DNA from: Gemmatimonadota bacterium
GTDB lineage: Bacteria; Gemmatimonadota; Gemmatimonadetes; Longimicrobiales; RSA9
Length of the DNA: 50,019 nucleotides
Direction: 5' to 3'
Assembly (NCBI GenBank): GCA_039715185.1
Contig: JBDLIA010000013.1
Location: 1 to 50,019 of the forward strand
Shown: positions 1,103-49,105 of the stretch, one piece after another
Layout of the letters: every line of letters begins with the position of its first letter
Position numbering within the stretch: the first letter of the stretch is position 1
Position numbers and translations under genes: made by a program
Notes under the pieces: model-generated
Seen by the model: the letters and a program-made list of their open reading frames with translations, nothing else
Told to the model about the DNA's origin: nothing
Database searches by the model: none

Positions 1103-1282
1103 CCTCCCCGGATCCCCCCAGCGCCAGGCGGCCCCGGCCGCCGTCGCCTAATTCTAAGGTCGAGACACCGCCGGGGGAATGGTGGGCTGCCTGCGCCAGC
1201 AAAGGGTTGGCGGCGATGGTAGATTGCGGCCTCCAACGGACGGCCATCGGGAACGCCGGTCGGTAGAAAGGGTGGAAGGCCT

Positions 1283-26612: not shown

Positions 26613-29216
26613 TCAGTCCGGAAAGCCGACCCGATCAAGCACCCGCTCGTACCGCGGATCGCCCGACAGGCTCCTGACCTCCTCCAGGCACTGCACGTTC
26701 AGCAGATGCCTCGGGTGATGTTCGTTCACGGCCCACTCCAGGTAATCGAGCGCGCGTTCGCGCTCTCCCAGCTCGATGGCGGCGGCGACAGTCCAGGTGG
26801 CCCTAGCAAAATGCGGCGGATAGCGTCGTTCGCCCTCTGCCAGCAGCGCCCTCGCGAGCTCGGTTCTCCCCGCGAGCGCGTAACCCAGTGCGATCCTGTT
26901 GTTCGACACGCCTCGGCGGGTTAGCCCGGCCAACTCGGCGAGCCCCTCCTCTCTTCGTCCAGCTTTCAGATACGCGTACGCCAACTGCCCTCGCACGTAG
27001 TCGCTGTCCAGGCTCGAGAGCACCCGTTTCAACTGGTCGATCGCCTCCTCGTACTCCCCCGCACATAGGAGCGCTTCGCCGAACCGCAGTTGGAGGTTGT
27101 ACGACCAGGGATCATAAGAGACGCTCTTCCGGAAGGCATCGATGCTCTCGGGGAACCGGCCCCATGACTGGAGCAGAAGAGCGTGCCCGAAGCGCAGCGG
27201 CGACCCGAGCACCTGCGCGCGTCGATAGGCTTCTTCGGAACCTTCGAAATCGCGCTCCCAGGCGTGAAGGACAAAGGCGAGCGCCGCCCACGCCGGGGCA
27301 TGGAGGCTGTCGAGTCGGAGTGCGGCGTCAACAGCGTCCCGCGACCTCGTGAAATCCAGTCTGGGCTCCAACCCCCAGGCCGCCCGATAATAATATATGC
27401 GACCCAGAGTTGCGTAGGGAGGTGCCCAGTCGGGTGCGAGAGAGATCGCTGCGCTCAGGCTCTCAATGGCTCGTTGGTGCACTGCCACGGGATCCCTCCC
27501 CTCGAGCGTGAGCGCACGCAGGTGGAAGAGACCGTCGAGATAGTGCTCGTACGCCTGCATGTTCTCCGGTGCCTGGACGCGGAGTTGAGCCTCTTCTGCC
27601 GGAAGCACTTCAGCCCCAAGCGATGTCGCGACTCGGACAGCAATGTCTCGCTGGATGTCGAGCGTATTGCCCACGGTGAGCTCGCGGTCGTACGAATTGC
27701 CCCAAATCCGCTCGTTCGTGCGCGCCTCGAAGAGCCCCACGTCGATCCTGATCCTGCCAGCGACCCGGTGGACTGCGCTTTCCACAATGTACCTGGCGCC
27801 GATTTCCTCGCCCAGGGTAGCCAGATCCACCGTTGCGTCCCGGTACCTGAGCACGGACCTACGCGACTTGATATCGAGCGAACGGATCTTTCCGAGTTGC
27901 GTCAACACCTCATCGTGAAAGCCCGCTGCGAAGCGGGCCTCTTCTTCGAGTCCGCTGGTATTCTCCACTGGAAGCACGGCGATGGACGGTCGGCTCGGGG
28001 CCACGCCGGTGACCGCCGCGGCGCCGTCAGCCGCGCTCCGGCCCGCGTCGGCGGCGGGTACGGGGCCCGGAGCGCGTGTTGCGACGTATCCTGCGGCGAC
28101 CGCCGCGACGACGAGAATCATGCCGATCGCGGTCGTCGCTACGCCCAGCCTGGGCGTCCGCTGCCCAGGCGCCTGCTCCCCGAGTCTCCGCAAGCCGCCG
28201 GAGCGCGCCGCGGGATCCTTGCTCAGCAGTTCGAGCACGAGCGCTTCGACGTCGTCGGGCAGACCGTCGCGAAGCCGGCCCGGGTGCTCTGCCTCGTCGT
28301 TCCGTATCGAATGGATCACCGTGCTGGAGAGCCCTCCGCGGAACGGCTGTCGGCCGGTCAGCATCTCGTAGAGCACCGCGCCCAGCGACCAGAGGTCGGT
28401 GCTCTCGTCCACCTCTTCACCACGGGTCTGCTCGGGCGACATGTAGGCCGGCGTGCCGACCTGCATGTCACCCATCGTCAAGGTGATCTGGTCCGTTTTC
28501 GCCAGCCCGAAGTCGAGGATCTTGAGCACCCCGCCGTCGGTGACGATCAGATTCGCGGGCTTGATGTCGCGGTGAATCAGCCCCGCGTCGTGAGCCGCGT
28601 TGAGCCCTCGTGCGGTCTGCCGCGTGAGGTCCAGCGCCTCCTCCACCTCGAGCGGGCCGCGCTCGATCTTCTCTCGGACGGTCTCGCCCTCGTAGAAGGC
28701 CATCGCGATGAACGGCCGACCTCTTTCCGCCTCGCCGACCTCGTAGATGGTGCAGATGTTCGGATGGTCCAAGGCGGCCGCGGCCCGCGCCTCGCGGAGG
28801 AACCGCTCTCTCACGGTGGGATGATGGGCCCAGTGGGCGGGTAGGAACTTGAGCGCGACCGTCCGGCCGAGATCCGGGTCTTCGGCAAGATAGACCACGC
28901 CCATCCCGCCCGCCCCGAGTCGCTTCAGCACTCTGTACCTGGAAACCGTCTGACCAATGAGATCCTCGACCTCCAAGAGGGTTACGTCGCCATCCTGCGG
29001 TGTGATTGCACCCAGGCCCGGGTGGCCAAAGAGCTCTTCGAACGGACCCAACAGGCGATCAGCCCTCTGATCGGCGACGACGAGCGCCTCGATCCCCGCG
29101 TAGAGCTCGGGGTCGCTGTTCGATACCGCTGCGAGGCGGACCGCCCGATCCTCGGGCTCGAGAGCCACGACCTCCTCGAACAGGGCCAGAGCCTCTTGCC
29201 AGCGGTCGGGCCTCAT
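26613..29216 (-). CDS. Ser/Thr protein kinase with FlgO-like and TPR domains
   Basis: This 867-aa membrane kinase has an N-terminal region of about 90 residues and a kinase domain at about 94-350 with GAGGMG glycine loop, VALKF Lys, LIHRDIKPANLIV catalytic loop, LDFGLAK and GTPAYMSPEQ. One membrane segment lies near 370-390 (MILVVAAVAAGYVAT). The extracytoplasmic part starts PSIAVLPVENTSG (a FlgO/adenylate-cyclase-associated type domain, with AGRIRIDVGLFEARTNERIW), then TPR repeats to the C-terminus. ATG at 29216 is chosen because it overlaps the sigma factor stop (ATGA); longer starts run into that gene. Linked to the ECF sigma factor as a coupled pair. Confidence 0.92.
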   Translation of the reverse strand: MRPDRWQEALALFEEVVALEPEDRAVRLAAVSNSDPELYAGIEALVVADQRADRLLGPFEELFGHPGLGAITPQDGDVTLLEVEDLIGQTVSRYRVLKRLGAGGMGVVYLAEDPDLGRTVALKFLPAHWAHHPTVRERFLREARAAAALDHPNICTIYEVGEAERGRPFIAMAFYEGETVREKIERGPLEVEEALDLTRQTARGLNAAHDAGLIHRDIKPANLIVTDGGVLKILDFGLAKTDQITLTMGDMQVGTPAYMSPEQTRGEEVDESTDLWSLGAVLYEMLTGRQPFRGGLSSTVIHSIRNDEAEHPGRLRDGLPDDVEALVLELLSKDPAARSGGLRRLGEQAPGQRTPRLGVATTAIGMILVVAAVAAGYVATRAPGPVPAADAGRSAADGAAAVTGVAPSRPSIAVLPVENTSGLEEEARFAAGFHDEVLTQLGKIRSLDIKSRRSVLRYRDATVDLATLGEEIGARYIVESAVHRVAGRIRIDVGLFEARTNERIWGNSYDRELTVGNTLDIQRDIAVRVATSLGAEVLPAEEAQLRVQAPENMQAYEHYLDGLFHLRALTLEGRDPVAVHQRAIESLSAAISLAPDWAPPYATLGRIYYYRAAWGLEPRLDFTRSRDAVDAALRLDSLHAPAWAALAFVLHAWERDFEGSEEAYRRAQVLGSPLRFGHALLLQSWGRFPESIDAFRKSVSYDPWSYNLQLRFGEALLCAGEYEEAIDQLKRVLSSLDSDYVRGQLAYAYLKAGRREEGLAELAGLTRRGVSNNRIALGYALAGRTELARALLAEGERRYPPHFARATWTVAAAIELGERERALDYLEWAVNEHHPRHLLNVQCLEEVRSLSGDPRYERVLDRVGFPD

Positions 29217-29809
29217 GGAGATGCCTCGCTGTCGGCCGCGCCGTTCACTTCCGGGAACAGGACCCGAGCGAGCCAGGCTCGAGCCGAGCGGAGCTCCCGT
29301 TTCACCGTTGCCAACGATACGTCGAGGGCCTCGGCGCACTCTTCCAGCTTCAAGCCGCCGAAATAGCGCTGCTCGAGAAGCTGGCTGCGCCGGGGGCTGA
29401 CCTCCTCCAGGAGCGTCAGCGCGCGGTCGAGCTCCTCGATGGCCACGGCGCTCGGTTCACTCAATACTCGCTCATCCTGAAGCTCGAGCTCGACCCAGCC
29501 GCCTCCACGCTTGGCGGCACCGCGGCGGCGGGCATAGTCCACGAGCACTCGCCGCATCATCCGCGAGGCCAGCGCCAGAAAGTGAGCCCGATCGCGGAAA
29601 TCCACGTCGCGAGCGTCCAGAAGCCGCAGATACGCCTCGTGGACCAAGGCGGTGGTATTGAGCGTGTGGTCGGGGCGCTCACCCGCCAGCCTGGCATGCG
29701 CGAGAACGCGGAGTTCCTCGTAGACGAGCGACACGACCTGATCGAAGGCGTCACGATCGCCACTCCTCGCTTCGCACCACAGCCCACTGATGTCGGGTTC
29801 GGAATGCAT
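29213..29809 (-). CDS. ECF-type RNA polymerase sigma factor, kinase-linked
   Basis: This 198-aa sigma factor contains region 2 (YEELRVLAHARLAGER; RAHFLALASRMMRRVLVDYA) and region 4 with its HTH (RYFGGLKLEECAEALDVSLA, TVKRELRSARAWL). No anti-sigma factor is adjacent. Instead the next gene, translationally coupled through ATGA, is a Ser/Thr kinase with TPRs, a pairing typical of ECF groups controlled by phosphorylation. ATG at 29809 (MHSEPDISG) is preferred over an upstream TTG at 29830. Target promoters are not evident. Confidence 0.88.
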   Translation of the reverse strand: MHSEPDISGLWCEARSGDRDAFDQVVSLVYEELRVLAHARLAGERPDHTLNTTALVHEAYLRLLDARDVDFRDRAHFLALASRMMRRVLVDYARRRGAAKRGGGWVELELQDERVLSEPSAVAIEELDRALTLLEEVSPRRSQLLEQRYFGGLKLEECAEALDVSLATVKRELRSARAWLARVLFPEVNGAADSEASP

Positions 29810-29941
29810 GAGGTTACACTGCGCACGCAAGCGGCTTGTCGTTCGAGAGTCGAAAGATAGACCGAAGAGTCCCTGTGGACTAATACGGCGGGCGCGAAGG
29901 CGGCTCTCCGCCGGCCGAGTTTGCCCTTGTAGAGTCGCGGC
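29810..29941. other. Upstream region of the ECF sigma gene
   Basis: This is non-coding sequence between the ECF start and the ArsR remnant and should contain the promoter for the sigma/kinase pair. No clear -35/-10 pair was identified by eye. Confidence 0.3.
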
Positions 29942-31255: not shown

Positions 31256-31557
31256 TCAGAGCGCGAATCGCACCCCGACCTGGATGCCTCGCCGCGCGCC
31301 CACGGACAGACTCCAGCGCTGCCTCGGCACATCGGTCCAGCGCTCCGACTTCGACATGGCTCCGATGGCGACGCCGACGAGCGCGCCCGCGGCGGCTCCA
31401 CCCAAGCCGTAGATGGCGGCGTCGAGCACTTCATTGGAGCTGTCCGTCTCCGTTCCAAGGCTGAAGGCCGTGACCGCGGCCTCACTAGCCGACGAGGCGG
31501 CCAACCCCAATAGCGCTCCCGCTCCGAAGCCGGCCAGCGCCCCGATCCAGGCTCCTT
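31256..31557 (-). pseudogene. N-terminally truncated glycine-zipper envelope protein
   Basis: The minus-strand frame reads GKGAWIGALAGFGAGALLGL, then AAIYGLGGAAAGALVGVAIG and SKSERWTDVPRQRW to a stop at 31256. This is the C-terminal part of a protein type common in this phylum, in which a secreted N-terminal domain (VRV..., about 100 residues) precedes GKGAWIGAL. Here no start codon or signal peptide is found upstream: the frame runs straight into the TACGTAGG repeat pair at 31585. TTG at 31510 could only give an 84-residue fragment. The gene is probably broken. Confidence 0.5.
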
Positions 31558-31584
31558 TTCCGGCTCTGATGTGGGTCGGGAGAG

Positions 31585-31614
31585 TACGTAGGCGGCGGGG
31601 GAGGGCTACGTAGG
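31585..31614. repeat. Paired motif TACGTAGG-N14-TACGTAGG, copy A
   Basis: TACGTAGG occurs at 31585-31592 and 31607-31614, starts 22 bp apart. The same pair with the same spacing occurs at 33229 and 40050. It lies between the MBL hydrolase gene (3' side) and the truncated glycine-zipper gene. Unknown function. Confidence 0.75.
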
Positions 31615-31656
31615 CGCCGCCGGGGGCTGGGCATGACCCTCGCAGGTTGCCTCAGC

Positions 31657-32568
31657 TCATGGCTCTGTTCGGTCGCTGAACGCGACCCCGGCGGAGTAGT
31701 TCAGCAGCCCCGCCACTTTCCATGGATACGCCTGCCGCATCTTCTCGGCGAGCTCGGGCCCGTCGCTCGAGGCCGTCAGGTGCGCGTCGAAATCGGTCAG
31801 GTACTCGATCATGGTCTGAAGAACCTCCGGTCCATCGGGCGTGTCGAGCGTCGGTTTGTGCCCGGCTATGACCGTTGCAGGTCCGCGCTCGGCGAGATCC
31901 CGAAGGTCATCACGCCACGCCTCCCGCGTTTCCTCATTGGAGACGCCGAGCCACGCGTGAACGCCGTTGAAGACGAGGTCGCTGGCAATGAGGGTGCGCA
32001 GCGAGGGGATCCAGACCACGCTGTTCACCGGCTCCATCACGTCCCCCTGCAGGTCCGCAATGATCTCCACCGCTTCGCCATCGACCGTGAGCGTGGTCGA
32101 GCGGAGCAGCTCCGGGGTGACGACGCTGTCCGCCAACTGCTCACCCCGCCGGGACTTGTCGCCCTGGAAATCCGCCCGCCCCTTTTCGTCGAAGTGCTCG
32201 ATCGCGGCCGCGGTCATGTACACGGGCGTGCCGGGGAACCGCTCCACGATCGCCGCGGCGCCCGCGAAGTGGTCGTGGTCGGGGTGCGTGATGAAGACGG
32301 CCTTGAGCCGCTTGCCGGTCGCCTCGATCTGGTCTGCAACACGTCGGGCGTCCTCGACGAGATACTGCGCGTCGATGAGGACGGCCTCCGTGGGTCCCGC
32401 GATGACGACCGAGTTGACGTGAAAAGCCGTGCTGTCGGCGATGTATTGCAGGAGCTCCAACTCGACGGGCGATCCCGTGGCGGAAGGAGATCGATTTGCG
32501 TTCCAGGCCAGAGCCAGGGAAGCGGCGACGGCGGCGGCGACGAGAAGGAAAACGCGAGAACGGGTCAT
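31657..32568 (-). CDS. Exported MBL-fold metallo-hydrolase
   Basis: This 303-aa protein has an N-terminal signal/anchor (VFLLVAAAVAASLALAW). The metallo-beta-lactamase signature THPDHDHFAG lies at about residues 94-103, and later ligands lie in LIASDLVFNGVH and IAGHKPT. The overall layout resembles the SdsA/glyoxalase-II-like group of exported MBL hydrolases. The substrate is unknown. It is co-oriented with the MarR gene (57 bp gap), which may control it. Confidence 0.85.
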   Translation of the reverse strand: MTRSRVFLLVAAAVAASLALAWNANRSPSATGSPVELELLQYIADSTAFHVNSVVIAGPTEAVLIDAQYLVEDARRVADQIEATGKRLKAVFITHPDHDHFAGAAAIVERFPGTPVYMTAAAIEHFDEKGRADFQGDKSRRGEQLADSVVTPELLRSTTLTVDGEAVEIIADLQGDVMEPVNSVVWIPSLRTLIASDLVFNGVHAWLGVSNEETREAWRDDLRDLAERGPATVIAGHKPTLDTPDGPEVLQTMIEYLTDFDAHLTASSDGPELAEKMRQAYPWKVAGLLNYSAGVAFSDRTEP

Positions 32569-32625
32569 TGCACTTGGTCCGAGAGTCGGTGTGAACGGGA
32601 TAGGGGCTGCTCTACCGCCGGCTTT

Positions 32626-33108
32626 CTAGCGCTCCGCTACGCGGAGCTGCCCTTCTAAGAGCGGATTCTCCGCCATGCTCTCGCGGAGATCTTCGAGGCG
32701 GCTGGCGACCGTGGTCCACTCGACGTCGCCCACCGCGGCCAGAAACGACTCCTGGGCGCGACGCCAGTGCGGAAGGGTCTCGAGGATCTTTCGGCCCCCG
32801 GTTTCGGTCAGCTCTGCCTGCTTTACGCGCGCGTCCTCCGGGTCAACCCGCGACTCGACCAGGCCATCCCGCTCCAGCGTTGCCATCGCCCTGTAGAGCG
32901 ATGTGCGCTCCAGCTCCAGCGCGTCCGCGACGCGACGAAGCGGTGAAGCGCCCTCTCGCTGCAGATATCGCAGAATCGAGTACTGCGTTACGGTGACGCC
33001 CGCCGGCGCCAGGCACGCCTCGTAGTGGCGGGAGACCGCGCGGGTGGCCTGCCGCAGGGCGGAGCAGGCACAGGGCAGCGCCGGCGGGTGATACTTCGGA
33101 AATGCCAT
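32626..33108 (-). CDS. MarR-family transcriptional regulator
   Basis: This 160-aa winged-helix repressor has the N-terminal dimerisation helix (CSALRQATRAVSRHYEACLA), then VTVTQYSILRYLQREGASPL, the recognition region (RRVADALELERTSLYRAMAT), LERDGLVES and the wing DPEDARVKQAELTETG. ATG at 33108 (MAFPKYH) is chosen because a strong promoter predicts transcription starting about here; ATG at 33123 would lie within the promoter. It is followed by an exported MBL hydrolase that it may regulate. Confidence 0.88.
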   Translation of the reverse strand: MAFPKYHPPALPCACSALRQATRAVSRHYEACLAPAGVTVTQYSILRYLQREGASPLRRVADALELERTSLYRAMATLERDGLVESRVDPEDARVKQAELTETGGRKILETLPHWRRAQESFLAAVGDVEWTTVASRLEDLRESMAENPLLEGQLRVAER

Positions 33109-33143
33109 TTGATGAGTATACATCGATTATTGAGGACCAACAA
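33109..33143 (-). promoter_or_regulatory. Sigma70-type promoter of the MarR gene, with dyad operator
   Basis: On the minus strand, -35 TTGTTG (33143-33138) and -10 TATACT (33120-33115) are separated by exactly 17 bp. The predicted start of transcription falls at or within a base or two of the ATG at 33108, so the message would be leaderless; no ribosome site is visible. An imperfect dyad, GATGAGTATACATC (33111-33124), spans the -10 and could be a MarR autoregulatory operator. Confidence 0.55.
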
Positions 33144-33228
33144 GAGAGCAAGTCTCCCCCCGGAGTCGGCCGGCGCGCTGACATGCTCCACGTTGCGCTC
33201 GGCAGCGGCAGAGGAAAACCGAGCGGCC

Positions 33229-33258
33229 TACGTAGGAGGGCGCGCGCAAGTACGTAGG
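33229..33258. repeat. Paired motif TACGTAGG-N14-TACGTAGG, copy B
   Basis: TACGTAGG occurs at 33229-33236 and 33251-33258, 22 bp apart. It lies about 90 bp upstream of the MarR promoter and downstream of the TRAP gene and the coding remnant. The 14-base spacer differs from copies A and C. Confidence 0.75.
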
Positions 33259-33356
33259 CAGAGGATGGGGTTGGGAGAAGGGTGTCGAACCGGTGTTCGG
33301 GCGGAACTCCACTGGCCGCCCCTGGAGAAGTCGACGCATCCGGACGTGTCAGATTC

Positions 33357-33482
33357 TCACGTCCTTCGGCCCTCCATCACGAAGTAGGTCTTCCCCCGGG
33401 CGTCGCCCAGGATCGGCAAGCACTCCAGGTCCGCGAGCGCCGCGGCATAGCGGGCGCGCGTCGACACAACCAGCAGCCCCGG
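33357..33482 (-). pseudogene. Coding-like remnant directly after the TRAP binding-protein stop
   Basis: Immediately after the TAG of the TRAP gene, in the same frame, 39 codons read LLVVSTRARYAAALADLECL followed by PILGDARGKTYFVMEGRR and a TGA at 33359-33357. Third positions are almost all G or C, as in real genes here. No good start with ribosome site is present (a GTG lies four codons in). It is probably the 3' end of a deleted gene; I do not recognise the family. Confidence 0.4.
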
Positions 33483-34541
33483 CTAGCCCGGATTCCCGGT
33501 CAGGCGCAGCACCTCGTCGAACCACTCTTCCGGAACCAGGGGTCCCCTCAGGGCCGGATATCCTTCTTCGAAGAACCGCCGCCATTCCTGCAGCTGCTCG
33601 GGATCCGGGTGGATGACTTCTAGGCCTCGAGCTTCCATAGCCGCCACCGCATCGACCTCCATCCGCTGTATCTCGGCCTGCATCCGCTCACCTGCTTCAT
33701 GCGCGATCCGCAGCAGCTCGGGACGGAGCTCGGACGGGATGCGGGTCCACGTTTCCCGGTCGATCAGCGTTGCGCCGACCAGCGGTGCCCATGGCATCTC
33801 GACCATAAACGGGATGAGCGGATACCATCGGTTCGCCAGCATGAACAGGGGCGTCGTACCTATCGCGTCGATGCGCGACTCCTCGAGGCCCGGCAGCACA
33901 TCGGCCAGTTCCAGATAGACACTGCGGAATCCCGAGTCCTTCCAGAGGTCGACCGCGCTGTCGTCCGCCCAGGCCACGAACCTGTACTCCCGTACTGCGT
34001 CGAGGCTCGGATCGGGTTTGGGCAAGAAGAAGCGAACCCAACCGATGTCACCCCAGTTGAGGAGGACATACCCCTTCTCGGCAAAGACGGCTTCGAGGCG
34101 AGGCTGCATCACCTCGCGAACCCGAGCCAGGTCATCCCAGGATTTCATGGCCATGGGTATGGCCAACACATACACCTGGGGGGTGATCCGACTGAGCCCG
34201 GCCAACGACAGCGACCCCGCCTGCAGCTGCCCTTCGCCGATTCTGCGAAGGATGTCCTCTTCCTCCCCGGCGACTCCACCCGGGTAGATACGCAACGTCA
34301 CCAATCCTCCGCTCGCCTCACGCCAGCGCGCGGACATCTCCTTCAGGATCTCATGCCACGCCGACCCGTTGGGCGCCAGCGTTGCAAGTCTGATGACGAG
34401 CGTGTCTCCAAGCGGAGGTGGCGTATCCCGCCGTGCAGGTTCGAACCCGACGAGACCGGCGTACAAGGCAGCGATCAGCGGCATGGCCGCCCATAGCGCG
34501 AGCCGCCGCCAACTCCGGTAAGCATGCCGTTGGAGTGACAT
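33483..34541 (-). CDS. dctP: TRAP transporter substrate-binding protein (DctP family)
   Basis: This 352-aa periplasmic binding protein has an N-terminal signal/anchor (LALWAAMPLIAALYAGLV). The mature part opens VIRLATLAPNGSAWHEILKE and has LVTLRIYPGGVAGEEEDILR, LQAGSLSLAGLSRITPQVYV, and a late MEMPWAPLVGATLIDRETWT-like region (VEMPWAPLVGATLI). DctP proteins capture organic acids for the DctQM membrane complex. The gene lies 12 bp after a TatT gene, matching the Tp0956-Tp0957 arrangement of Treponema. No DctQ or DctM is in the window. Confidence 0.88.
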   Translation of the reverse strand: MSLQRHAYRSWRRLALWAAMPLIAALYAGLVGFEPARRDTPPPLGDTLVIRLATLAPNGSAWHEILKEMSARWREASGGLVTLRIYPGGVAGEEEDILRRIGEGQLQAGSLSLAGLSRITPQVYVLAIPMAMKSWDDLARVREVMQPRLEAVFAEKGYVLLNWGDIGWVRFFLPKPDPSLDAVREYRFVAWADDSAVDLWKDSGFRSVYLELADVLPGLEESRIDAIGTTPLFMLANRWYPLIPFMVEMPWAPLVGATLIDRETWTRIPSELRPELLRIAHEAGERMQAEIQRMEVDAVAAMEARGLEVIHPDPEQLQEWRRFFEEGYPALRGPLVPEEWFDEVLRLTGNPG

Positions 34542-34553
34542 GTGTGCTCCTTC

Positions 34554-35498
34554 TCAGCGGCTCGCCGCCACGGTCGAGAAGAACAGCTCTTCCTCCCGGG
34601 TGATGAGCCAAGCGGCGTGCTGCTGTGCCAGGGTGTTGGGGAGGCGGAGCTCTGGATACGCGGTTACATCGAATTCGATCGCCTGCTGCAGAAGGGTTCG
34701 GAACCGCCCGATGTTCTGCTGCTGGATGCAGACAGACTCGGCCATGGCAACCAGCGGTCCGATCGATCGCCCGCCGTTGAGCTCCATGGCGCGCCGGAAG
34801 TGGTATTCGGATCGTGCCTCGCCGTCCGTTCCGTCTGATCCCGGGGCTGACCGCAGCGCGATCAAGCGCTCGTGAATGGCACCGTCGTTCCAGGACTCGT
34901 CCAACTCGAGGGCACGCTCGATGAGACCGTGCACGATCGGGAGGTCGGCGACCAACGACATGTCGCTCTTATCGACGGAGATCGCGGACCCCAGCGAGAT
35001 CGCCAGCCAATACATGGCCGGGACGTCGTCGCGATCGAACTCGGCGAGGGTCGCCTCGAGGTCGTGGATCAGCCCTTGCGCTGCTCCGGGGTGGCGCACC
35101 TCCACTGCACGTTTGGCGTAACGGTTGGCCCGGAGAAACAGCTTCTTGGAGCGGGCCCGGCCCTCGCGGGCCGTGTCGTAGTCCTCAGCCTCGACAGCGA
35201 TGGCCGGACGTAGCACGAAGGCGTGCGTGTATTGGACGAAGCCGGACGCTGTCGCAATCAGAAGACCTTCGTGTTCGGGAGTACTCTGCAGCAACGACTC
35301 CATCATCTTGAGGCTGAACGGCAAAGCCTCCGCAACCAAGAGGGGGTCGTCGTCGCTCAGGTAGACGCTCGTGCCGTCCTCGGAAAGCGAGTTGGCCAGG
35401 GCGTTAACCGCCACTTCCTTCATCGAGCATCCGAAGAGGGAGAACAAAAGTGGTACGGCGAGCAGCGCCGGCAGGGGTTGGTGGCGTCCGAAACTCAT
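34554..35498 (-). CDS. tatT: TRAP transporter T-component lipoprotein (TatT family)
   Basis: This 314-aa lipoprotein has the lipobox LFGC with Cys24. The mature part matches the TatT pattern: VAVNALANSLSEDGTSVYLS, DDPLLVAEALPFSLKMMESL, HEGLLIATASGFVQYTHAFV. TPR-type helices continue to the C-terminus (PIVHGLIERALELDESWNDG, AIHERLIALRS). TatT trimers associate with the TRAP P component and may aid handling of hydrophobic ligands. It sits between the dehydratase-activase companion and dctP in one operon. Confidence 0.88.
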   Translation of the reverse strand: MSFGRHQPLPALLAVPLLFSLFGCSMKEVAVNALANSLSEDGTSVYLSDDDPLLVAEALPFSLKMMESLLQSTPEHEGLLIATASGFVQYTHAFVLRPAIAVEAEDYDTAREGRARSKKLFLRANRYAKRAVEVRHPGAAQGLIHDLEATLAEFDRDDVPAMYWLAISLGSAISVDKSDMSLVADLPIVHGLIERALELDESWNDGAIHERLIALRSAPGSDGTDGEARSEYHFRRAMELNGGRSIGPLVAMAESVCIQQQNIGRFRTLLQQAIEFDVTAYPELRLPNTLAQQHAAWLITREEELFFSTVAASR

Positions 35499-35540
35499 GT
35501 GTTCCTCCCTTCCTCGTGGGTGCGCTCGGCTCCGGCTCGC

Positions 35541-36767
35541 TCAGTCGCGGGTGAGCACCACCCGCCGATGGAATTGCAGTGCTTGGTGAATGAACGCTTC
35601 CAATCGCGTCATGACGTTGGTCTCTTCCTGTCCGTCGTAGGCGATATCCAGCCACGGGATCTGGTCCATCTGCTCGCGAATCCGCGGTGCCATGCTCGAA
35701 ACGACGGTGCCCGGCATGCATGAGAATGGAAGGACGTTGACGACCCCACTCAGCCCGTGCTGGGCCAGGTCCAGGCACCGGGCCATGGTGAGCACGGCTT
35801 CGGTACCGAGCACCGTCTCGTAGTGCGGGTCCAGGCGCGCCATGGCCTTCGGAATCGACTCCTCGCGAGGATGCCGGAGTACCTTGTGCAGGGGTTTGGT
35901 GAGCCGGTCCTCGGCCCGGGTCTGGTAGGTATCCGACAGGAAGCCCTTGAAAAACTCCAGATAGTTGCCGAAACGGCGCGATAGGTCCATGCGCCTCCAA
36001 TCGACGAAGTGGAGATAATCCATGAAGGTACCCAGGATCACCTCACCGCCGACGCTCTCGATGGCCCGTACTACTCGAGTGTTGGCCGGCTCGCTCAGCA
36101 TCAGGTAGATCTCGCCCATTACCGCGATCAGAGGGCGGGGCTCGGAACGATCGATGGGAAGCTCGGAGAAGCGGTCGGCCGTCCAGGCCATCGCCTCGAC
36201 GAGATGGTCTTCGCAGCCCGCCTCGGCCGCCGTCTCGATGCGGTCCAGGCAGGCCGCGTACGCCGCGTCCGCCGAGCCGGGCGCCAGCTCGTACGGGCGA
36301 TGCTCGTGGAGGACCTTGGCCAGAAGATCGGCCGCGACGATGGCTTGCCAGGCGCGTTTGCGCAGGGTAGTGGGATCGTCGCCGAACATCGAGTAGGAGT
36401 CGTCCGTTCCCGGGGAAACCAGACGAACCTCGGCGAGTCCTTCCTCGGCGAGGATCTGCCTCTGCAGCACGCTGACCTGGCCGAACCGGCACGGACCGGG
36501 CCCGGCGGGCATGAAGAACACCGCACGGTTCCGGTCGAATCCGGGCTCCCGGCATTTCCTCAACATGTCGCCCGTGCAGAGGAAGCAGGGGAGGCACTCA
36601 CGTCCGTGGCACAGACCCAGCCCAATGTTCATGGACTCCTGGTCCGGTGGCGGCAGAACCTGGGCGGCGATGCCCATACCCCGCATGGCCGCGGCCACGG
36701 GCCTGGCGTGATCGGACATGTAAGGAATGAAGACGATATCGGTGCCCGGCTCGACCCGCGTCTTCAC
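35541..36767 (-). CDS. 2-hydroxyacyl-CoA dehydratase/activase companion protein (COG3581-like)
   Basis: This 408-aa protein corresponds to the C-terminal part of the long acyl-CoA dehydratase activase-related proteins. The key segment is CHGRECLPCFLCTGDMLRKC, a probable Fe-S site, followed by MPAGPGPCRFGQVSVLQ. Later segments are AVMGEIYLMLSEPANTRVVR, VNVLPFSCMPGTVVSSMAP and WLDIAYDGQEETNVMTRLEA, the latter like the C-terminal domain of dehydratase subunits. Its ATG overlaps the stop of the activase gene by 4 bp. The substrate is unknown. Confidence 0.82.
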   Translation of the reverse strand: MKTRVEPGTDIVFIPYMSDHARPVAAAMRGMGIAAQVLPPPDQESMNIGLGLCHGRECLPCFLCTGDMLRKCREPGFDRNRAVFFMPAGPGPCRFGQVSVLQRQILAEEGLAEVRLVSPGTDDSYSMFGDDPTTLRKRAWQAIVAADLLAKVLHEHRPYELAPGSADAAYAACLDRIETAAEAGCEDHLVEAMAWTADRFSELPIDRSEPRPLIAVMGEIYLMLSEPANTRVVRAIESVGGEVILGTFMDYLHFVDWRRMDLSRRFGNYLEFFKGFLSDTYQTRAEDRLTKPLHKVLRHPREESIPKAMARLDPHYETVLGTEAVLTMARCLDLAQHGLSGVVNVLPFSCMPGTVVSSMAPRIREQMDQIPWLDIAYDGQEETNVMTRLEAFIHQALQFHRRVVLTRD

Positions 36768-39751
36768 GATCCCACCCCAGCCGAGATGTTGAGACTGTCG
36801 AGAAAAGCCTCACATCGGGTCACGATCCCGGCCTCGGCCGTATGGTCATCGACCTCGAGCTCGAGGAACGGCTTGGAGCCCATCATCCGCCGGAAGAAGC
36901 TGATGATGAACGAGTCGGGGCCGCAGTTGAAGCTCGTCAGGTAGATTGCCTGCAAACGTTCGTCGGCGGCGATGATCTTCGCCGCGGCCAGGATGTCCTG
37001 TCCGCTTCGCCAGAACATGTCATTGTGAACTTCGGTAACGTCCACGGACGCGAGCGGAAGGAAGTCCATCGGAATGGGCAACACCCCCAGCTTTCGCAGC
37101 TTGAGCGGAAGGTCCTGACAGACTCCCGGGTCACAACTGTTGTAGGGCCGGCCTACGATGACCACCGCCGGGGGCCCCGACCCCAACGAGCTCAACACCT
37201 CCGCGCCGCGGCTCCGAACCCTTGCGTAGAAATCCTCCTGGGCCCTGGCGCCTTCGTGCGCCGCTTTCATGACGCGCCGGATCGGAATCCCCAGCTGCTC
37301 GGCCAGCGGCCGCAACTCCCGCTTTCGCGAATGCGTCTGCATCATGTGCAGCGGGAATTTGATCGGACGAGGCCCGTGCTTCTCGATGTCCAGGTGGGCC
37401 ATCACCATCTCGGGCGCAGCCGGAATGTATGGGCAGTAGTGATTCCGGATCTGCCCGGGCGCCGTGTTCTCGCGATCGATGATGCTCGGCAGGAAGACGA
37501 AGTCCAGGTCCCGCCCCAGCAGATCCATGACGTGCCCGAACATGAGCTTTACCGGAAAGCACGTCTCCGCTGCGGCGCTCTGCTGCGTGTACCTGATGAT
37601 GTCCGGATTGGTGACCTCGGACAGGATCAGGTCCATGTCCAGGTCCTGAAAGAAGCGCCACCAGTAGGGGAAGAGATCGTGGAAGATGAGGGCTCGGGGG
37701 AGTCCGACCCGTGGCCTGCCGAGCGTCCGAGGCCTGGAGTCATCGTAGCCGGCGAAGAGCATGTCCGAGCGCTCGCCGAACAGGTCGGGGATCGCATGGT
37801 GCAGACCCACCTTCGCGCGGCCGGCCTCTTCGAACTTGTCGCAACGCGCGCCATAGAAGATCGGCGGATCGTCGCCGATCACCACCTTCTTCACCTCGCA
37901 GAGGTTGGGGCAGGCCTTACATACGAACACTTCCGAGTCGTAGGCGTAGTTGGCCAGGTCGAAACCACGGAACGTGGTTCCTGCGCCCGGACCGCGACTC
38001 TCCATTTCCTCTCGTGCCAGGATGGCCGCGCCGATCGCGCCCGTGACGTCGTTGTGGGCCGGGACGGTGATGGAGCGGCCCGTCACCGACTCGAAGGCCG
38101 CCGCGACACTCGCGTTCGAAGCCACGCCGCCCTGGAAAAAGATCCGGTTGCCTATCGGCCGCGTGTTGACGACGCGATTCAGGTAGTTGTTGACGATGGA
38201 GTAGGCGAGACCCGCCGTGAGATTCTCGACCGATGCGCCACGTTGCTGGTGGTGCACCAGGTCGGACTCCATGAACACGGTGCAGCGCTCACCGAGGCAG
38301 GCGGGCGCCGGGGCATGGCCGGCCAGTTGTTCGAAGTCATCTCTTATGGAAATCTGGAGGCGGTCGGCCTGCTCCTCCAGGAAGGAGCCGGTACCTGCCG
38401 CACAGGCGTTGTTCATCGCGAAATCCACGACAGCACCGTGGTGCATGCGGATGTACTTGCTGTCCTGACCACCGATCTCGAAGATGGTGTCCACTTCGGG
38501 ATCCGTGGCCGCGGCGGCTCGCGCCTGCGAGGTGATCTCGTTCCGGATCACGTCGGCACCGACATAGTGGCCGGTCAGATACCGGCCGGAGCCGGTCGCC
38601 CCCACCGCCAGGACGCGCACGTGCTCGCCGACCTCCTCGTCGACCTCGGCGAGTCCTCGTTGGACCGCTTCCAATGGCCTTCCGGCCGTTGGCAGATAAC
38701 GCCGCGCAAGCACTCGATCGTCGTCGTCTATCAACACGATGTTCGTGCTCAATGAGCCGACGTCCACGCCCATATAGGTGGGAATGGCCGGTTGCTGTCC
38801 GTTGAGTATCGACCTCCAACCCTGCCCGCCGGCGTTGTAGACGGGAAGAGACAACGGCGCCAGGCTGCGCTCCTCCGTCTTCCCTGATCGCAGGAACTCC
38901 TCGAGCGGCTCGAAGCCATGAAACGCTTGGACGCGGCCTTCACGGGTCTCGTCCCTGACCGTCAGGGCCGCTCCGATCGCCGCCATCTGATCCCGGTGCT
39001 CGGGAATGATCAGCCCGCCCGGCTCCAGACGCAGCACGCTTTCGAAGGCACGGGTGACCGCGTCGTTGAACGCGACCCCGCCCTGAAAGAGGATTGGCGG
39101 TACGAAGGATTTCCCCTTCCCGATGATCGTCTTGAAGTTGCGCGCCAAAGCCAGGCACAGCCCGGCCAGGATCTCGGATAGTGGGGTCCCTTCTTGCTGG
39201 AGGTGGATCATGTCCGACTTGGCGAACACGGTGCAGCGCCCCGCGATGCGGGCGGGCGTTTCGGCGGCCAACGCGATACGGGCGAATTCGCCGTCGATCT
39301 CGATGCCCAGCCTTTCGGCTTGCTGGTCGAGGAATGATCCCGTGCCCGCAGCGCAGAGGGCGTTCATGGCGAAGTCCACCAGCACCATCTGTCGGCTGTT
39401 CTCGTCCCACTGGAGGGAGAGGAACTTGCTGTCCTGGCCCCCGATCTCGATGACCGTGCGCGCCTCCGGGTGGTATTCGCCCACGGCCCGCGCTTGAGTC
39501 ACGAGCTCGTTGGCGTGAAAGCCTCCGATGAGCCGTTTGATGCGTTCCCCGCCCGAGCCGGTCAGGCCCACGCCGCGGACGGTCGCGTCGGGAAAGTCCC
39601 TGGGCAGGACCCGACTGGCGTCGAGGACTGTCTGACGAGGGTTTCCGTGAGAGCGGCGGTACTGGTGCGAGAGCAGGGCGCCGTTCTCGTCGAGCACTAC
39701 CAGCTTGACGGTGGTCGAGCCGACATCGAGGCCCAGGTAGACATCGCCCAT
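36764..39751 (-). CDS. Fused double-domain acyl-CoA dehydratase activase (BcrAD/BadFG-type ATPase)
   Basis: This 995-aa protein has two ASKHA ATPase domains in tandem. The first (about 2-260) has YLGLDVGSTTVKLVVLDENG, IEIGGQDSKFLS, CAAGTGSFLDQQ and RCTVFAKSDMIHLQQ. The second (about 320-590) has YMGVDVGSLSTNIVLIDDDD, FEIGGQDSKYIR, CAAGTGSFLEEQ and RCTVFMESDLVHHQQ. A DUF2229 region follows (CKACPNLCEVKK, PRVGLPRALIFHDLFPYWW). In HgdC two identical subunits share one [4Fe-4S] cluster through the two conserved Cys; here both domains keep both Cys, so one chain may mimic the dimer. ATG at 39751 is preceded by GGAGGT at 5 bases, better than ATG at 39763. Such proteins drive ATP-dependent one-electron transfer to a dehydratase, which is not encoded nearby. 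Confidence 0.9.
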   Translation of the reverse strand: MGDVYLGLDVGSTTVKLVVLDENGALLSHQYRRSHGNPRQTVLDASRVLPRDFPDATVRGVGLTGSGGERIKRLIGGFHANELVTQARAVGEYHPEARTVIEIGGQDSKFLSLQWDENSRQMVLVDFAMNALCAAGTGSFLDQQAERLGIEIDGEFARIALAAETPARIAGRCTVFAKSDMIHLQQEGTPLSEILAGLCLALARNFKTIIGKGKSFVPPILFQGGVAFNDAVTRAFESVLRLEPGGLIIPEHRDQMAAIGAALTVRDETREGRVQAFHGFEPLEEFLRSGKTEERSLAPLSLPVYNAGGQGWRSILNGQQPAIPTYMGVDVGSLSTNIVLIDDDDRVLARRYLPTAGRPLEAVQRGLAEVDEEVGEHVRVLAVGATGSGRYLTGHYVGADVIRNEITSQARAAAATDPEVDTIFEIGGQDSKYIRMHHGAVVDFAMNNACAAGTGSFLEEQADRLQISIRDDFEQLAGHAPAPACLGERCTVFMESDLVHHQQRGASVENLTAGLAYSIVNNYLNRVVNTRPIGNRIFFQGGVASNASVAAAFESVTGRSITVPAHNDVTGAIGAAILAREEMESRGPGAGTTFRGFDLANYAYDSEVFVCKACPNLCEVKKVVIGDDPPIFYGARCDKFEEAGRAKVGLHHAIPDLFGERSDMLFAGYDDSRPRTLGRPRVGLPRALIFHDLFPYWWRFFQDLDMDLILSEVTNPDIIRYTQQSAAAETCFPVKLMFGHVMDLLGRDLDFVFLPSIIDRENTAPGQIRNHYCPYIPAAPEMVMAHLDIEKHGPRPIKFPLHMMQTHSRKRELRPLAEQLGIPIRRVMKAAHEGARAQEDFYARVRSRGAEVLSSLGSGPPAVVIVGRPYNSCDPGVCQDLPLKLRKLGVLPIPMDFLPLASVDVTEVHNDMFWRSGQDILAAAKIIAADERLQAIYLTSFNCGPDSFIISFFRRMMGSKPFLELEVDDHTAEAGIVTRCEAFLDSLNISAGVGS

Positions 39752-39753
39752 GG

Positions 39754-39966
39754 CTACCTCCATTCTGGTGTCGACCAGTGACGAGTCCGACTGAGCGGGG
39801 CGCTGGGCGCAGGTTCGAGGGGGGCAAACTCCGGCGGGACCGAGTCCTTGCTGACTCCATGATACGACCCGACTCTCATCCGTCTGTGGGGTATCTCCCT
39901 CGTCAGGGTGGGGAGACCTCCCACGGTGGTCTTGCGCTCCATTGTTGTTTGGCGGTTCTCAGACAT
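39754..39966 (-). CDS. Possible small leader protein before the activase
   Basis: A 70-codon frame starts at ATG 39966 with GGAG 6 bases upstream and ends just inside the activase start region. The product (MSENRQTTMERKTTVGGLPT...) is basic and Pro-rich at the end, with no membrane segment and no recognised family. The good ribosome site and the overlap with the activase leader favour a real small gene. The weak third-position GC bias argues against it. Confidence 0.3.
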   Translation of the reverse strand: MSENRQTTMERKTTVGGLPTLTREIPHRRMRVGSYHGVSKDSVPPEFAPLEPAPSAPLSRTRHWSTPEWR

Positions 39967-40087
39967 CGAGTGCTCCGTCCCGGTCGGGTGGCGCTGCCGT
40001 CCTCACCTGCAAGCTGCGGCTGGCGGGGACTGAGGTGTGGCGGCGGGAGTACGTAGGAGGCGGCGTGTTTCTACGTAGGCGACTGTG
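39967..40087. other. Intergenic region carrying paired motif copy C
   Basis: This stretch separates the S8 peptidase stop from the activase operon. It holds the TACGTAGG pair at 40050-40079 and presumably the operon promoter. No clear -35/-10 pair or terminator was identified. Confidence 0.4.
40050..40079. repeat. Paired motif TACGTAGG-N14-TACGTAGG, copy C
   Basis: TACGTAGG occurs at 40050-40057 and 40072-40079, 22 bp apart, 8 bp past the stop of the S8 peptidase gene and about 85 bp before the possible small gene that precedes the activase operon. Same orientation and spacing as copies A and B. Confidence 0.75.
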
Positions 40088-46012: not shown

Positions 46013-49000
46013 TCAAGTCCCGGGTTGGTCGATCGGGCCCTCGCCGCTCGCCAGGACCACGGGCGCGAGCGCCGCCAGCTCGTTCCTACCCGCAATGTCC
46101 AGCTTACGGTAGACGTTGGAAAGGTGGGTGGTCACCGTACGGGGGGAGATTCCGAGCTCCTTGGCGATCGCTTTGTTCGACGCTCCGCGCGCCACCAGCC
46201 GGACGATCAGGGTTTCCCGGCCGGTGAGGGCTCCGCCGCTGCGCCCGGCGGTCCGGGTGGGGGGACGGGCGCCCTGCTCGCGCAGCATCTCGCGGGTCTT
46301 GTCCAGCTCGAAGCGCGCTCCCAGCCGCGCGAACACGTCGTGCACCGCCCTGAGCTCGGCGATCGCCTCGTCCCTCTCGCCCAGGTCGATCAGGCGCGCC
46401 GCCAGTTGGCGCCGCACGCGCGCAGCGTCCCACACGAATGGCACCGACTCGAGCCGCTCGGCCGACGCCCGCAACATGTCGGCGGCCGCCCGCAGGTCCC
46501 CGCGCAGCCACTCCACCAACGCGTCGCCGGTCTCCGTCCAGGCCAAGCCCAGCGCGTGCCCGAGGGCTTCGGCGTCCGTGCGCAGTCGCAAGCGCTCCGG
46601 CTCGGCCCCCTCCGCGTCGTGCTTGTACAGGTGCGCCTCGATGATCGTCGGCAGGAGTCGATGGACAGCCCAGGCGGTGAAGCCCACCCGGTCCGCGATC
46701 GCGAGCCCGCGTCGGCCGACCGCGATCGCCTCGTCCCACTGCCAGAGCGTCCTGTGGTAGTTTGCCATGCCGGTGTGTACCGCGATCAGGCTGTGCACGT
46801 CGGGCGCCGAGGTGGGGTCGTCCGCGCCGGCGAGCAGCCAGGCCTCGTCCAGGTAGGCCTTCGCGCGCTCGGTGTCGTGCCGGCCCAGGTAGATCAGCGC
46901 GGTCCACACGAGCAGGCGGGGCAGCAGCCGGCGCTGGTTCAGGGTTCGGGCCAGCGCGATGGCGCGCTCCCCGAGCGCGACGCCGGTGTCCCAGTCGCCC
47001 GAGCTGAACGCCCACTCGATCGCCACCTCGTCCAGCGCCAGCCGCAGCAGGGGCGAGTTCATCTCGTCGGCCAGGCGCGTCCCGCGCGCGACGTGCTCGG
47101 CGCACACCCGGGCGTGGCCGGTGAGCCCCTCGAGCACTCCGAGCGCCCAGTGGCACTTGCAGATCGAGAGCGCGTCGGCGCGCGCCTCGGAGATTTCGAG
47201 GGCGCGCGTGCCGTGCTCGCGCGCGAGGTCGGGTGGGCCCGACATGGTGTGGAAGATCAGGAGGGCCCGCCTCACCCTCGCTTCGACATCCTCGGCGCCC
47301 GCCTCGAGCGCTGTATCGAGCGCCGCCTCCAGCTCCTGCCGCGCCTCGGCGACCCGCCCGAGCGCCTGAAGGCAACCGCCCACGGCCAGGCGCACGCTGG
47401 CGAGGACGGCGCCATCTCGCGCGGTCGTCGCGTGGGCGAGTGCCTTGCCGAACGCCGCGAGGGCGTCGTCCTGGCGGCCGGCCCAGAAGTGCGCGAGACC
47501 GATACGCCGCATGACGTTGGCGGCGCCCAGGTCGTCGCCGCCCGCGACGTGCTCCCCGTAAGCGCGCTCCCGCAGCGCGGCTGCGTCGGCGTAGTTGCCG
47601 CGGTGCTGACGCGCGCTCGCCAGACGCCTCAGCAGCCAGGCCAGCCCCGCGGCGCCCCCCAGCGTGCCCCGTTCGTCGGGGTGGAGGCGTTCGAACTGTT
47701 CGAGCGCGGCGGACAGGAACAGGTCGGCCTCGCGATCGGCGAACCGCGCGAGCGCCCGCTCGCCCGCGATGCTGAGGTAGCGCACGGCGTCGACCGAAGG
47801 GTCGCCCTGGCTCGCGCGCACCCAATGGTGCGCGAGCTCTTCCGCGTGCGCGCTGGCGTCTTCGCCGTATTGGGCCTCGAGGGCGCTCGCGACGGTCTCG
47901 TGCAGGAGCTGCCTCCGGGCGAGGCCGATGCGCTCTTCCAGGACTTGCCGGAGCATGGGATGACGGAAGTCGTACTCGGGCCTGTCCGGAGGGCCGTGCT
48001 CGCTGAGCACGCCCGCCATGCGGAGTTCCTCCACCGCGCGCACCAGAGCGGGCTCGGCGAGGTCACTCACGGCTCGCAGGGTGCGCAACTCCGCGCCCGT
48101 GCCGATCACCGCGACCACGTCGGCCACCGACCGCGCCGCGTCGGACAGCCGCTCCAGTTGGAGGTCGATCGCCTCGCGTATGGAGCGCGGCAGCTCCGGA
48201 GTTTCCACCTCCCAGCCGATCCAGCTTCCTCCCTCTTGGCGCAGGCGCCCGCTGTCCACGAGCTCGCTGAGGGTCTCCCGGAGGAAGAACGGATTGCCGC
48301 GCGTCCAGCCATAGAGCGTGGACGAGAAACGGCCCGTGACCGACTCATCGACGTTGAAAACGTGGTGTACCAGACTCGCCACGCCCTCGGCGCTGAGCGG
48401 GGCGAGCGGCTGCTCGTCGATGAGCGACAGCGACTCCAGCGAGCGCAGCACCGTACGCAGCGTGGGGTGCGCGCCGCGTTCGTCGTCGTTGATGGTGCCC
48501 AGGAACGCCACCGGTTCGTCGCTGAGCTGTCGACACAGGAAGTGGAAGAGCTCCAGCGAGGCGGCGTCCGCCCAGTGCAGGTCGTCGAGCAGAACTACGA
48601 CGGGCTGGCGCGCGCTCCAGGCGCGCAGGAACTCGCCAAACGTCCAGAAGAGTTGCGTCTTGTCCGCCGGGGTGGAGGCGGTCGCGCCGTTTTCCACCGC
48701 CGGGAACAGGTGCGAGAGCCGGCCCTGGTGCCCGCGCGCGAGGACACTGAGGGTGGGGGAATCCATGCCGTTGAGTAGCGGCACGAAGCCGTCCGCGAAG
48801 AGCGAGTAGGGCACCGACGAGCCGATGGGGTAGGCTCGACACTGAATGGCCTCGCCGCGCACCGATGCTTCTTCCCCGAGGGCCGCCAGGAGTCTGCTCT
48901 TGCCGACACCGGAGGGGCCGGTGATGAGCGTGCCCGCGAAGCCTCCGGCCAGCGCTCGCTCGTGTCCGGAACGCAATTCTGCCAGATCGGCGGTACGCCC

Positions 49001-49105
49001 GATCAGCGGCAGGCGTTCGAGAATCGATCTGATGGGCCCGATTCCAGCTCGAGTGGACGCGCGGCGGGGGTGGCCGGACCGTCCGGCCACCGATCGTACA
49101 CTCAT
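46013..49105 (-). CDS. LAL-type LuxR-family transcriptional regulator with ATPase domain
   Basis: This 1030-aa regulator resembles the MalT/LAL group. An AAA/STAND ATPase domain opens RLPLIGRTADLAELRSGHER, with Walker A TGPSGVGKSRLL and Walker B PVVVLLDDLHWADAASLEL. A long helical TPR-like region (about 380-930) follows. A C-terminal LuxR HTH (GRETLIVRLVARGASNKAIA, KELGISPRTVTTHLSNVYRK) ends the protein. Such proteins bind a ligand and ATP, oligomerise and activate transcription. The ligand is unknown. The DUF2911 genes start 82 bp downstream of its stop and are plausible targets. Confidence 0.9.
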   Translation of the reverse strand: MSVRSVAGRSGHPRRASTRAGIGPIRSILERLPLIGRTADLAELRSGHERALAGGFAGTLITGPSGVGKSRLLAALGEEASVRGEAIQCRAYPIGSSVPYSLFADGFVPLLNGMDSPTLSVLARGHQGRLSHLFPAVENGATASTPADKTQLFWTFGEFLRAWSARQPVVVLLDDLHWADAASLELFHFLCRQLSDEPVAFLGTINDDERGAHPTLRTVLRSLESLSLIDEQPLAPLSAEGVASLVHHVFNVDESVTGRFSSTLYGWTRGNPFFLRETLSELVDSGRLRQEGGSWIGWEVETPELPRSIREAIDLQLERLSDAARSVADVVAVIGTGAELRTLRAVSDLAEPALVRAVEELRMAGVLSEHGPPDRPEYDFRHPMLRQVLEERIGLARRQLLHETVASALEAQYGEDASAHAEELAHHWVRASQGDPSVDAVRYLSIAGERALARFADREADLFLSAALEQFERLHPDERGTLGGAAGLAWLLRRLASARQHRGNYADAAALRERAYGEHVAGGDDLGAANVMRRIGLAHFWAGRQDDALAAFGKALAHATTARDGAVLASVRLAVGGCLQALGRVAEARQELEAALDTALEAGAEDVEARVRRALLIFHTMSGPPDLAREHGTRALEISEARADALSICKCHWALGVLEGLTGHARVCAEHVARGTRLADEMNSPLLRLALDEVAIEWAFSSGDWDTGVALGERAIALARTLNQRRLLPRLLVWTALIYLGRHDTERAKAYLDEAWLLAGADDPTSAPDVHSLIAVHTGMANYHRTLWQWDEAIAVGRRGLAIADRVGFTAWAVHRLLPTIIEAHLYKHDAEGAEPERLRLRTDAEALGHALGLAWTETGDALVEWLRGDLRAAADMLRASAERLESVPFVWDAARVRRQLAARLIDLGERDEAIAELRAVHDVFARLGARFELDKTREMLREQGARPPTRTAGRSGGALTGRETLIVRLVARGASNKAIAKELGISPRTVTTHLSNVYRKLDIAGRNELAALAPVVLASGEGPIDQPGT

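Follow-up and report, generated by a model that had tools for sequence, protein, structure and literature searches.

Tandem sites 22 bp apart in Gemmatimonadota as predicted operators of a MalT-like LAL regulator

The closest described counterparts of the sites reported here are those of MalT and of other LAL regulators. MalT of Escherichia coli and Klebsiella combines an N-terminal ATPase, a TPR sensor (domain III) and a C-terminal LuxR HTH, and its sites are described as direct repeats upstream of promoters, close to the −35 (Vidal-Ingigliardi et al. 1991, as cited in PMC7567727 and PMC6099782); both the domain order and this placement of the sites recur in the system described below. In Actinoplanes sp. 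SE50/110, many MalT promoters share the palindrome TCATCC-N5-GGATGA near −35 (PMC7567727), whereas TpdR, a LAL activator of Rhodococcus jostii TMP1, acts at a promoter in which direct repeats are combined with 7-bp inverted repeats that have a 4-bp gap, from −45 to −28, and controls one operon in response to tetramethylpyrazine (PMC6099782), as opposed to the phylum-wide regulon predicted here. The Gemmatimonadota promoter-proximal site is also partly palindromic, as in Actinoplanes, and contains inverted half-sites separated by N4, as in the case of TpdR, but the Actinoplanes promoters carry a single palindrome, with another motif and other targets in another phylum, rather than two sites 22 bp apart.

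The window analysed here is a stretch of 50,019 nt of DNA from a Gemmatimonadota bacterium. Gemmatimonadota are soil and water bacteria, common in soil and mostly known from metagenomes, and to our knowledge, little is known about regulation in this phylum. Searches of the open-access literature revealed neither a defined regulator-operator pair for Gemmatimonadota nor this motif or such a regulon in the phylum. Thus, what is new is this predicted regulon, the kind of control, namely LAL/MalT-like activation from tandem sites, being already known.

An earlier note on this DNA had claimed exact 22-bp pairs at 31585, 33229 and 40050, flanked on both sides by co-oriented minus-strand genes. Both claims hold, with TACGTAGG-N14-TACGTAGG found without mismatches at all three positions. 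The three pairs are real rather than products of chance. The single 8-mer TACGTAGG occurs 9 times in the window (0.21 expected; none of the shuffles reached 9), and the pair at ≤3 mismatches yields 7 matches (0.05 expected). The genome-wide search that the note had proposed was performed on the own genome of the window (3.66 Mb, 252 contigs), where enrichment was judged from pattern counts with reversed-pattern controls, and returned 6 exact pairs compared to 0 for the reversed pattern. Since TACGTA is its own reverse complement, the orientation must come from the flanks. On the minus strand, which is the coding one, the motif reads CTACGTM-N15-CTACGTM, a 22-bp direct repeat, and CTACGTA-N15-CTACGTA, with 10 exact copies in the own genome, is a better description of it than TACGTAGG-N14-TACGTAGG. 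The half-site CTACGTM differs from GGGGA(T/G)GAGG, the site of E. coli and Klebsiella MalT.

Alignment of loci picked by the pair alone brought out a further box, CANNTTG, at one offset: it starts exactly 40 bases past the start of the second half-site, that is, 33 bp past its end, and is usually followed 30–70 bp further on by a start codon. The composite CTACGTA-N15-CTACGTA-N33-CANNTTG matches 10 sites in the own genome at ≤3 mismatches and none in the reversed control; the period and offset counts obtained later are biased, because most of the loci were fetched by the pattern, and a variable-gap search of TACGT pairs was too unspecific to resolve a preference for 22 bp. The box retains A2 and T6 of the −10 hexamer and reads GATACT in genomes of the genus g70; no clear −35 is visible in the composite sites. 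In relatives, the second half-site extends to the partial palindrome TACGTC-ATTC-GACGTA. An early impression from the own-genome copies, that a longer element is conserved, was abandoned: the additional conservation is the promoter −10 region, and relatives keep the half-sites, the spacing and the −10 only. If the box serves as the −10, the 2 sites would be centred near −43 (proximal) and −65 (distal), and the layout appears to be one of tandem sites facing the same side of the helix at a promoter that depends on an activator. The 22-bp repeats and their fixed distance to the −10-like box would place it among MalT-type promoters, with two direct-repeat regulator sites upstream.

We consider it very probable, from sequence comparison, that the pairs are operators at which a MalT-like LAL regulator (STAND class, with a LuxR-type HTH) activates promoters. 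Once activated, the LAL would bind both tandem sites, which lie on the same helix face at a distance of 22 bp; the promoter-proximal one, TACGTM-N4-xACGxA, is partly palindromic and would be located near −43, its distal counterpart near −65. With both sites bound, RNA polymerase would be recruited to a promoter that is weak, its −10 (CANNTT) being poor and a clear −35 lacking. We infer that the LAL binds the sites, presumably as a dimer on each, and activates rather than represses. Activation does not follow from site position alone, and the pair could conceivably be the operator of a repressor or a site of mixed function. This is very unlikely, however, considering that the sites end 22–33 bp ahead of the −10 without covering it, that the −10 is poor and the −35 not visible, and that the LAL relatives described in PMC7567727 and PMC6099782 exert activation at sites that overlap the −35 or precede it.

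In the window, the predicted promoters and the genes behind them are arranged as follows:

40050..40078, minus strand: predicted tandem operator, half-sites CTACGTA at 40078-40072 and 40056-40050, 0 mismatches to the composite, matrix score 44.0
40010..40016, minus strand: −10-like box CAGCTTG, exactly 33 bp past the second half-site of the 40050 operator
39754..39966, minus strand: small ORF of 70 aa (MSENRQTTMERKTTV...), the first to follow the 40050 promoter, ahead of the activase gene
33483..39763, minus strand: co-oriented genes downstream of 40050, for a BcrAD/DUF2229 activase, a 408-aa protein, a TAtT TRAP T-component and DctP
33229..33257, minus strand: predicted tandem operator, half-sites at 33257-33251 and 33235-33229, matrix score 36.5
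33189..33195, minus strand: −10-like box CAACGTG of the 33229 operator, at the same fixed offset with 1 mismatch
31657..33123, minus strand: predicted targets of 33229, a MarR-family regulator (32626-33123) and a metallo-beta-lactamase-fold protein (31657-32568)
31585..31613, minus strand: predicted tandem operator without −10 box (promoter remnant), half-sites at 31613-31607 and 31591-31585, matrix score 17.5
31256..31560, minus strand: gene fragment without 5′ end, for a Gly-zipper protein, a reading frame without start directly after the 31585 operator

The copies at 40050 and 33229 are thus predicted to be intact promoters and that at 31585 a decayed copy before a decayed target gene. Transcription from the 40050 promoter would be expected to start near 40004. 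The small ORF may encode a leader peptide or a small protein, the 408-aa protein is without Pfam match, and the spacing of the genes between 33483 and 39763 suggests that they form one operon. The matrix score of 31585 is only 17.5 because its −10 region is missing, and contig C158 carries an intact target that the C-terminus of the adjacent fragment matches (45% over 42 aa, E 3e-7); the simplest reading is that a deletion joined the operator to what had been the 3′ portion of a target gene. The earlier note had placed this copy upstream of a truncated gene, and the fragment indeed lies there, but its status as a remnant had been missed. Elsewhere in the window, a gene for a Ser/Thr protein kinase with TPR repeats (26613-29830, minus strand) overlaps a PF07638-family ECF sigma factor gene.

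Multiple intergenic copies, with three in one window and one of them (31585) ahead of a gene remnant, might be expected of a short mobile or interspersed repeat (REP-, MITE- or attC-like), and the note had indeed named a short mobile or structural element as an option. This origin is hardly credible: only the two half-sites, their spacing and the −10 are conserved among the copies, the spacers and flanks being unrelated, and the copies point to start codons and are retained at orthologs from different genera. By contrast, the note's other proposal, a binding site for a regulator acting on two same-face sites, is supported by the enrichment and by the fixed distances to the −10-like box and the start codon, and also fits the orthologous upstream positions in different genera and the co-occurrence with one LuxR-type family. 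What the note had overlooked is the likely regulator gene, which lies in the same window:

46013..49105, minus strand: predicted reader of the sites, a LAL/STAND regulator of 1030 aa with AAA_16 ATPase, winged helix, TPR superhelix and C-terminal LuxR/GerE HTH (residues 958-1020)

The ATPase of this protein (AAA_16, E 2.5e-23) carries the Walker A motif GPSGVGKS, the glycines and lysine of which are invariant in 21 homologs, and the Walker B motif VVVLLDDLHWAD. Its HTH matches PF00196 at residues 960-1014 (E 4.7e-17), and the solved domains of NarL, VraR, GerE and ComA match residues 958-1012. A structural model built from 21 homologs (mean pLDDT 87.8) displays the order ATPase, winged helix, TPR superhelix and HTH, with the winged-helix-like segment at 307-392, after the ATPase, and the TPR superhelix at 395-943. 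MalT domain III (1hz4) aligns to the model over 358 residues with a Z of 30.9 and an rmsd of 3.8, and the VIA-align list for the model is dominated by the TPR part, so that it does not fully probe the ATPase and HTH. The best PDB match found by Foldseek (E 4.5e-11) is the TPR-containing STAND protein 6mfv, and Apaf-1 and CED-4 are also among the matches. Consistent with STAND membership, the model contains a NOD module of ATPase and winged helix joined to a sensor. The regulator nevertheless differs from MalT of E. coli and Klebsiella: across its 1030 aa, the NCBIfam MalT equivalog (NF003420) is matched in the HTH only, with 37.3 bits against a cut-off of 537. The window protein thus belongs to the LAL/STAND regulators without being MalT itself. 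The strong conservation of its HTH among homologs fits the conserved half-site.

To assess the distribution of the sites, the composite was searched for in 298 genomes of the phylum, 13 of which carry it at ≤2 mismatches. A relaxed pattern built on the half-sites, a third half-site and the −10 (TACGT-N17-TACGT-N7-CGNA-N24-ANNNT, ≤1 mismatch) gave 84 matches in the same 298 genomes versus 10 in the reversed control. A stricter exact pattern retrieved 23 stretches from 84,980 bacterial and archaeal genomes, 22 in Gemmatimonadota and 1 in a Flavobacteriales bin; a single stretch outside the phylum is roughly what chance would produce. A different, longer palindrome, TACGTA-N17-TACGTA, with a 23-bp period, is present in about 8 copies in the genome G255 (C4:9400, C21:91, C26:61902, C53:10332, C73:739, C144:1786, C144:20718 and C144:28838) and is probably the site of another regulator.

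The LAL family was detected in 65 of the 298 genomes, including all 13 bearing the composite at ≤2 mismatches. Among genomes with exact sites of the relaxed pattern, 27 of 29 encode a LAL (Fisher 2.5e-18 against 65/298 overall, shared ancestry not being fully corrected for), and the association persists within families, with a LAL in 16/16 site genomes of family f5 (p 4.6e-8) and 7/8 of family f2 (p 2.8e-5), likewise with ancestry not fully corrected for. The 2 exceptions are G201, with a single match, and G277, a genome of the same genus as G255, in the 85% complete assembly of which clear sites were identified but a LAL was not. In the window's family, the 4 of 12 genomes with the pair are exactly the 4 with a full-length LAL ortholog, the other 8 containing partial LAL paralogs of ≤120 bits or nothing. 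Conversely, of the 57 genomes in which the LAL match is strong, 30 lack an exact composite, implying that the motif drifts or that LAL homologs differ in specificity. One motif variant is TACGTG, in G206.

Physical linkage of the sites to LAL genes points the same way as co-occurrence. At 15 sites, a LAL gene is present within 12 kb (approximately 0.3 expected), and sites stand directly upstream of LAL genes in G136, G154, G206 and G185, the last of which encodes a 1007-aa protein with AAA_16, TPR and GerE; in G011, the site is 1.4 kb from a similar LAL gene. The single LAL ortholog of the own genome is the one encoded in the window, 6 kb from the 40050 site, and no site was found upstream of this gene itself (46013-49105). 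Taken together, the sequence data indicate that the window LAL is the likely reader of the sites.

LytTR regulators of the AgrA/ComE type bind direct repeats approximately 21–22 bp apart upstream of a weak promoter. This geometry, of direct repeats about two helical turns apart, is shared by the sites described here and gave rise to our first hypothesis, of LytTR control; moreover, LytTR genes are present in 9 of the 12 genomes of the window's family. Unlike in LytTR-regulated promoters, however, no cognate LytTR family tracks the sites in the window's family: G002, G004, G006, G009 and G010 encode LytTR proteins without containing a single exact pair, and no TACGTA pair adjoins LytTR genes. 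The LAL, by contrast, tracks the sites exactly and is physically linked to them, and the LytTR hypothesis was dropped for this reason. Operators for a different regulator, be it a LytTR-family response regulator or an unlinked LuxR/NarL-type one, are hence unlikely, and activation by the LAL is the reading followed below.

Orthologous genes from different genera retain the site. It is conserved at genes for TonB receptors in G255 and G288, for GDSL-lipase-like proteins in G174, G075 and G270 (adjoining the LAL in G174 and G075) and for Omp85-like proteins in G255 and G163, which belong to different families and share 48% identity. The TAtT-DctP TRAP pair is the site target in both the window and G213, with identities of 50% and 47%. 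An N-terminal hydrophobic, export-signal-like segment was found by a crude test in 32 of 56 predicted first targets compared to 123 of 390 neighbouring genes. Whereas MalT of E. coli and Klebsiella controls maltose genes, the targets here would be exported proteins, TRAP uptake and clusters led by a KASIII-like enzyme, copies of which are located as follows:

L171, 702-9827: KASIII-like operon
L193, 4294-13586: KASIII-like operon
L194, 3121-12409: KASIII-like operon
L096 and L098: further copies

This operon encodes a KASIII-like enzyme, a thioester reductase, an ACP-sized protein, an amino acid-[ACP] ligase-like protein, further enzymes and an MmpL3-like exporter, and, judged from its gene content, looks like an undescribed aminoacyl-lipid biosynthetic cluster. 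The site is conserved at the KASIII-led operon in G082, G095, G260 and G288, with KASIII being the second gene in G256. In several genera, the LAL adjoins the operon of KASIII, thioester reductase, ACP, amino acid-[ACP] ligase and MmpL-like exporter, with a LAL site in front, and in three genomes, the LAL gene stands at its end. One doubtful but conceivable reading of these associations is a phylum-wide regulon in which the LAL would sense an envelope- or lipid-related signal, possibly a self-made aminoacyl-lipid; if so, the LAL circuit could be one of cell-to-cell signalling.

The predicted regulon is a first glimpse of how a network of genes is controlled in Gemmatimonadota. A composite of 15 to 19 bases predicts promoters, regulator and targets from sequence alone, making the regulon directly testable and providing a usable promoter architecture, and an orphan LAL regulator family becomes linked to a DNA code, as well as to an operon for lipid or aminoacyl biosynthesis that seems not to have been described. 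Among further predicted targets, a conserved 186-aa protein with no clear Pfam match (L148, L149 and L150, at about 915-1472, minus strand) is a site target encoded convergently with the LAL gene in g70.
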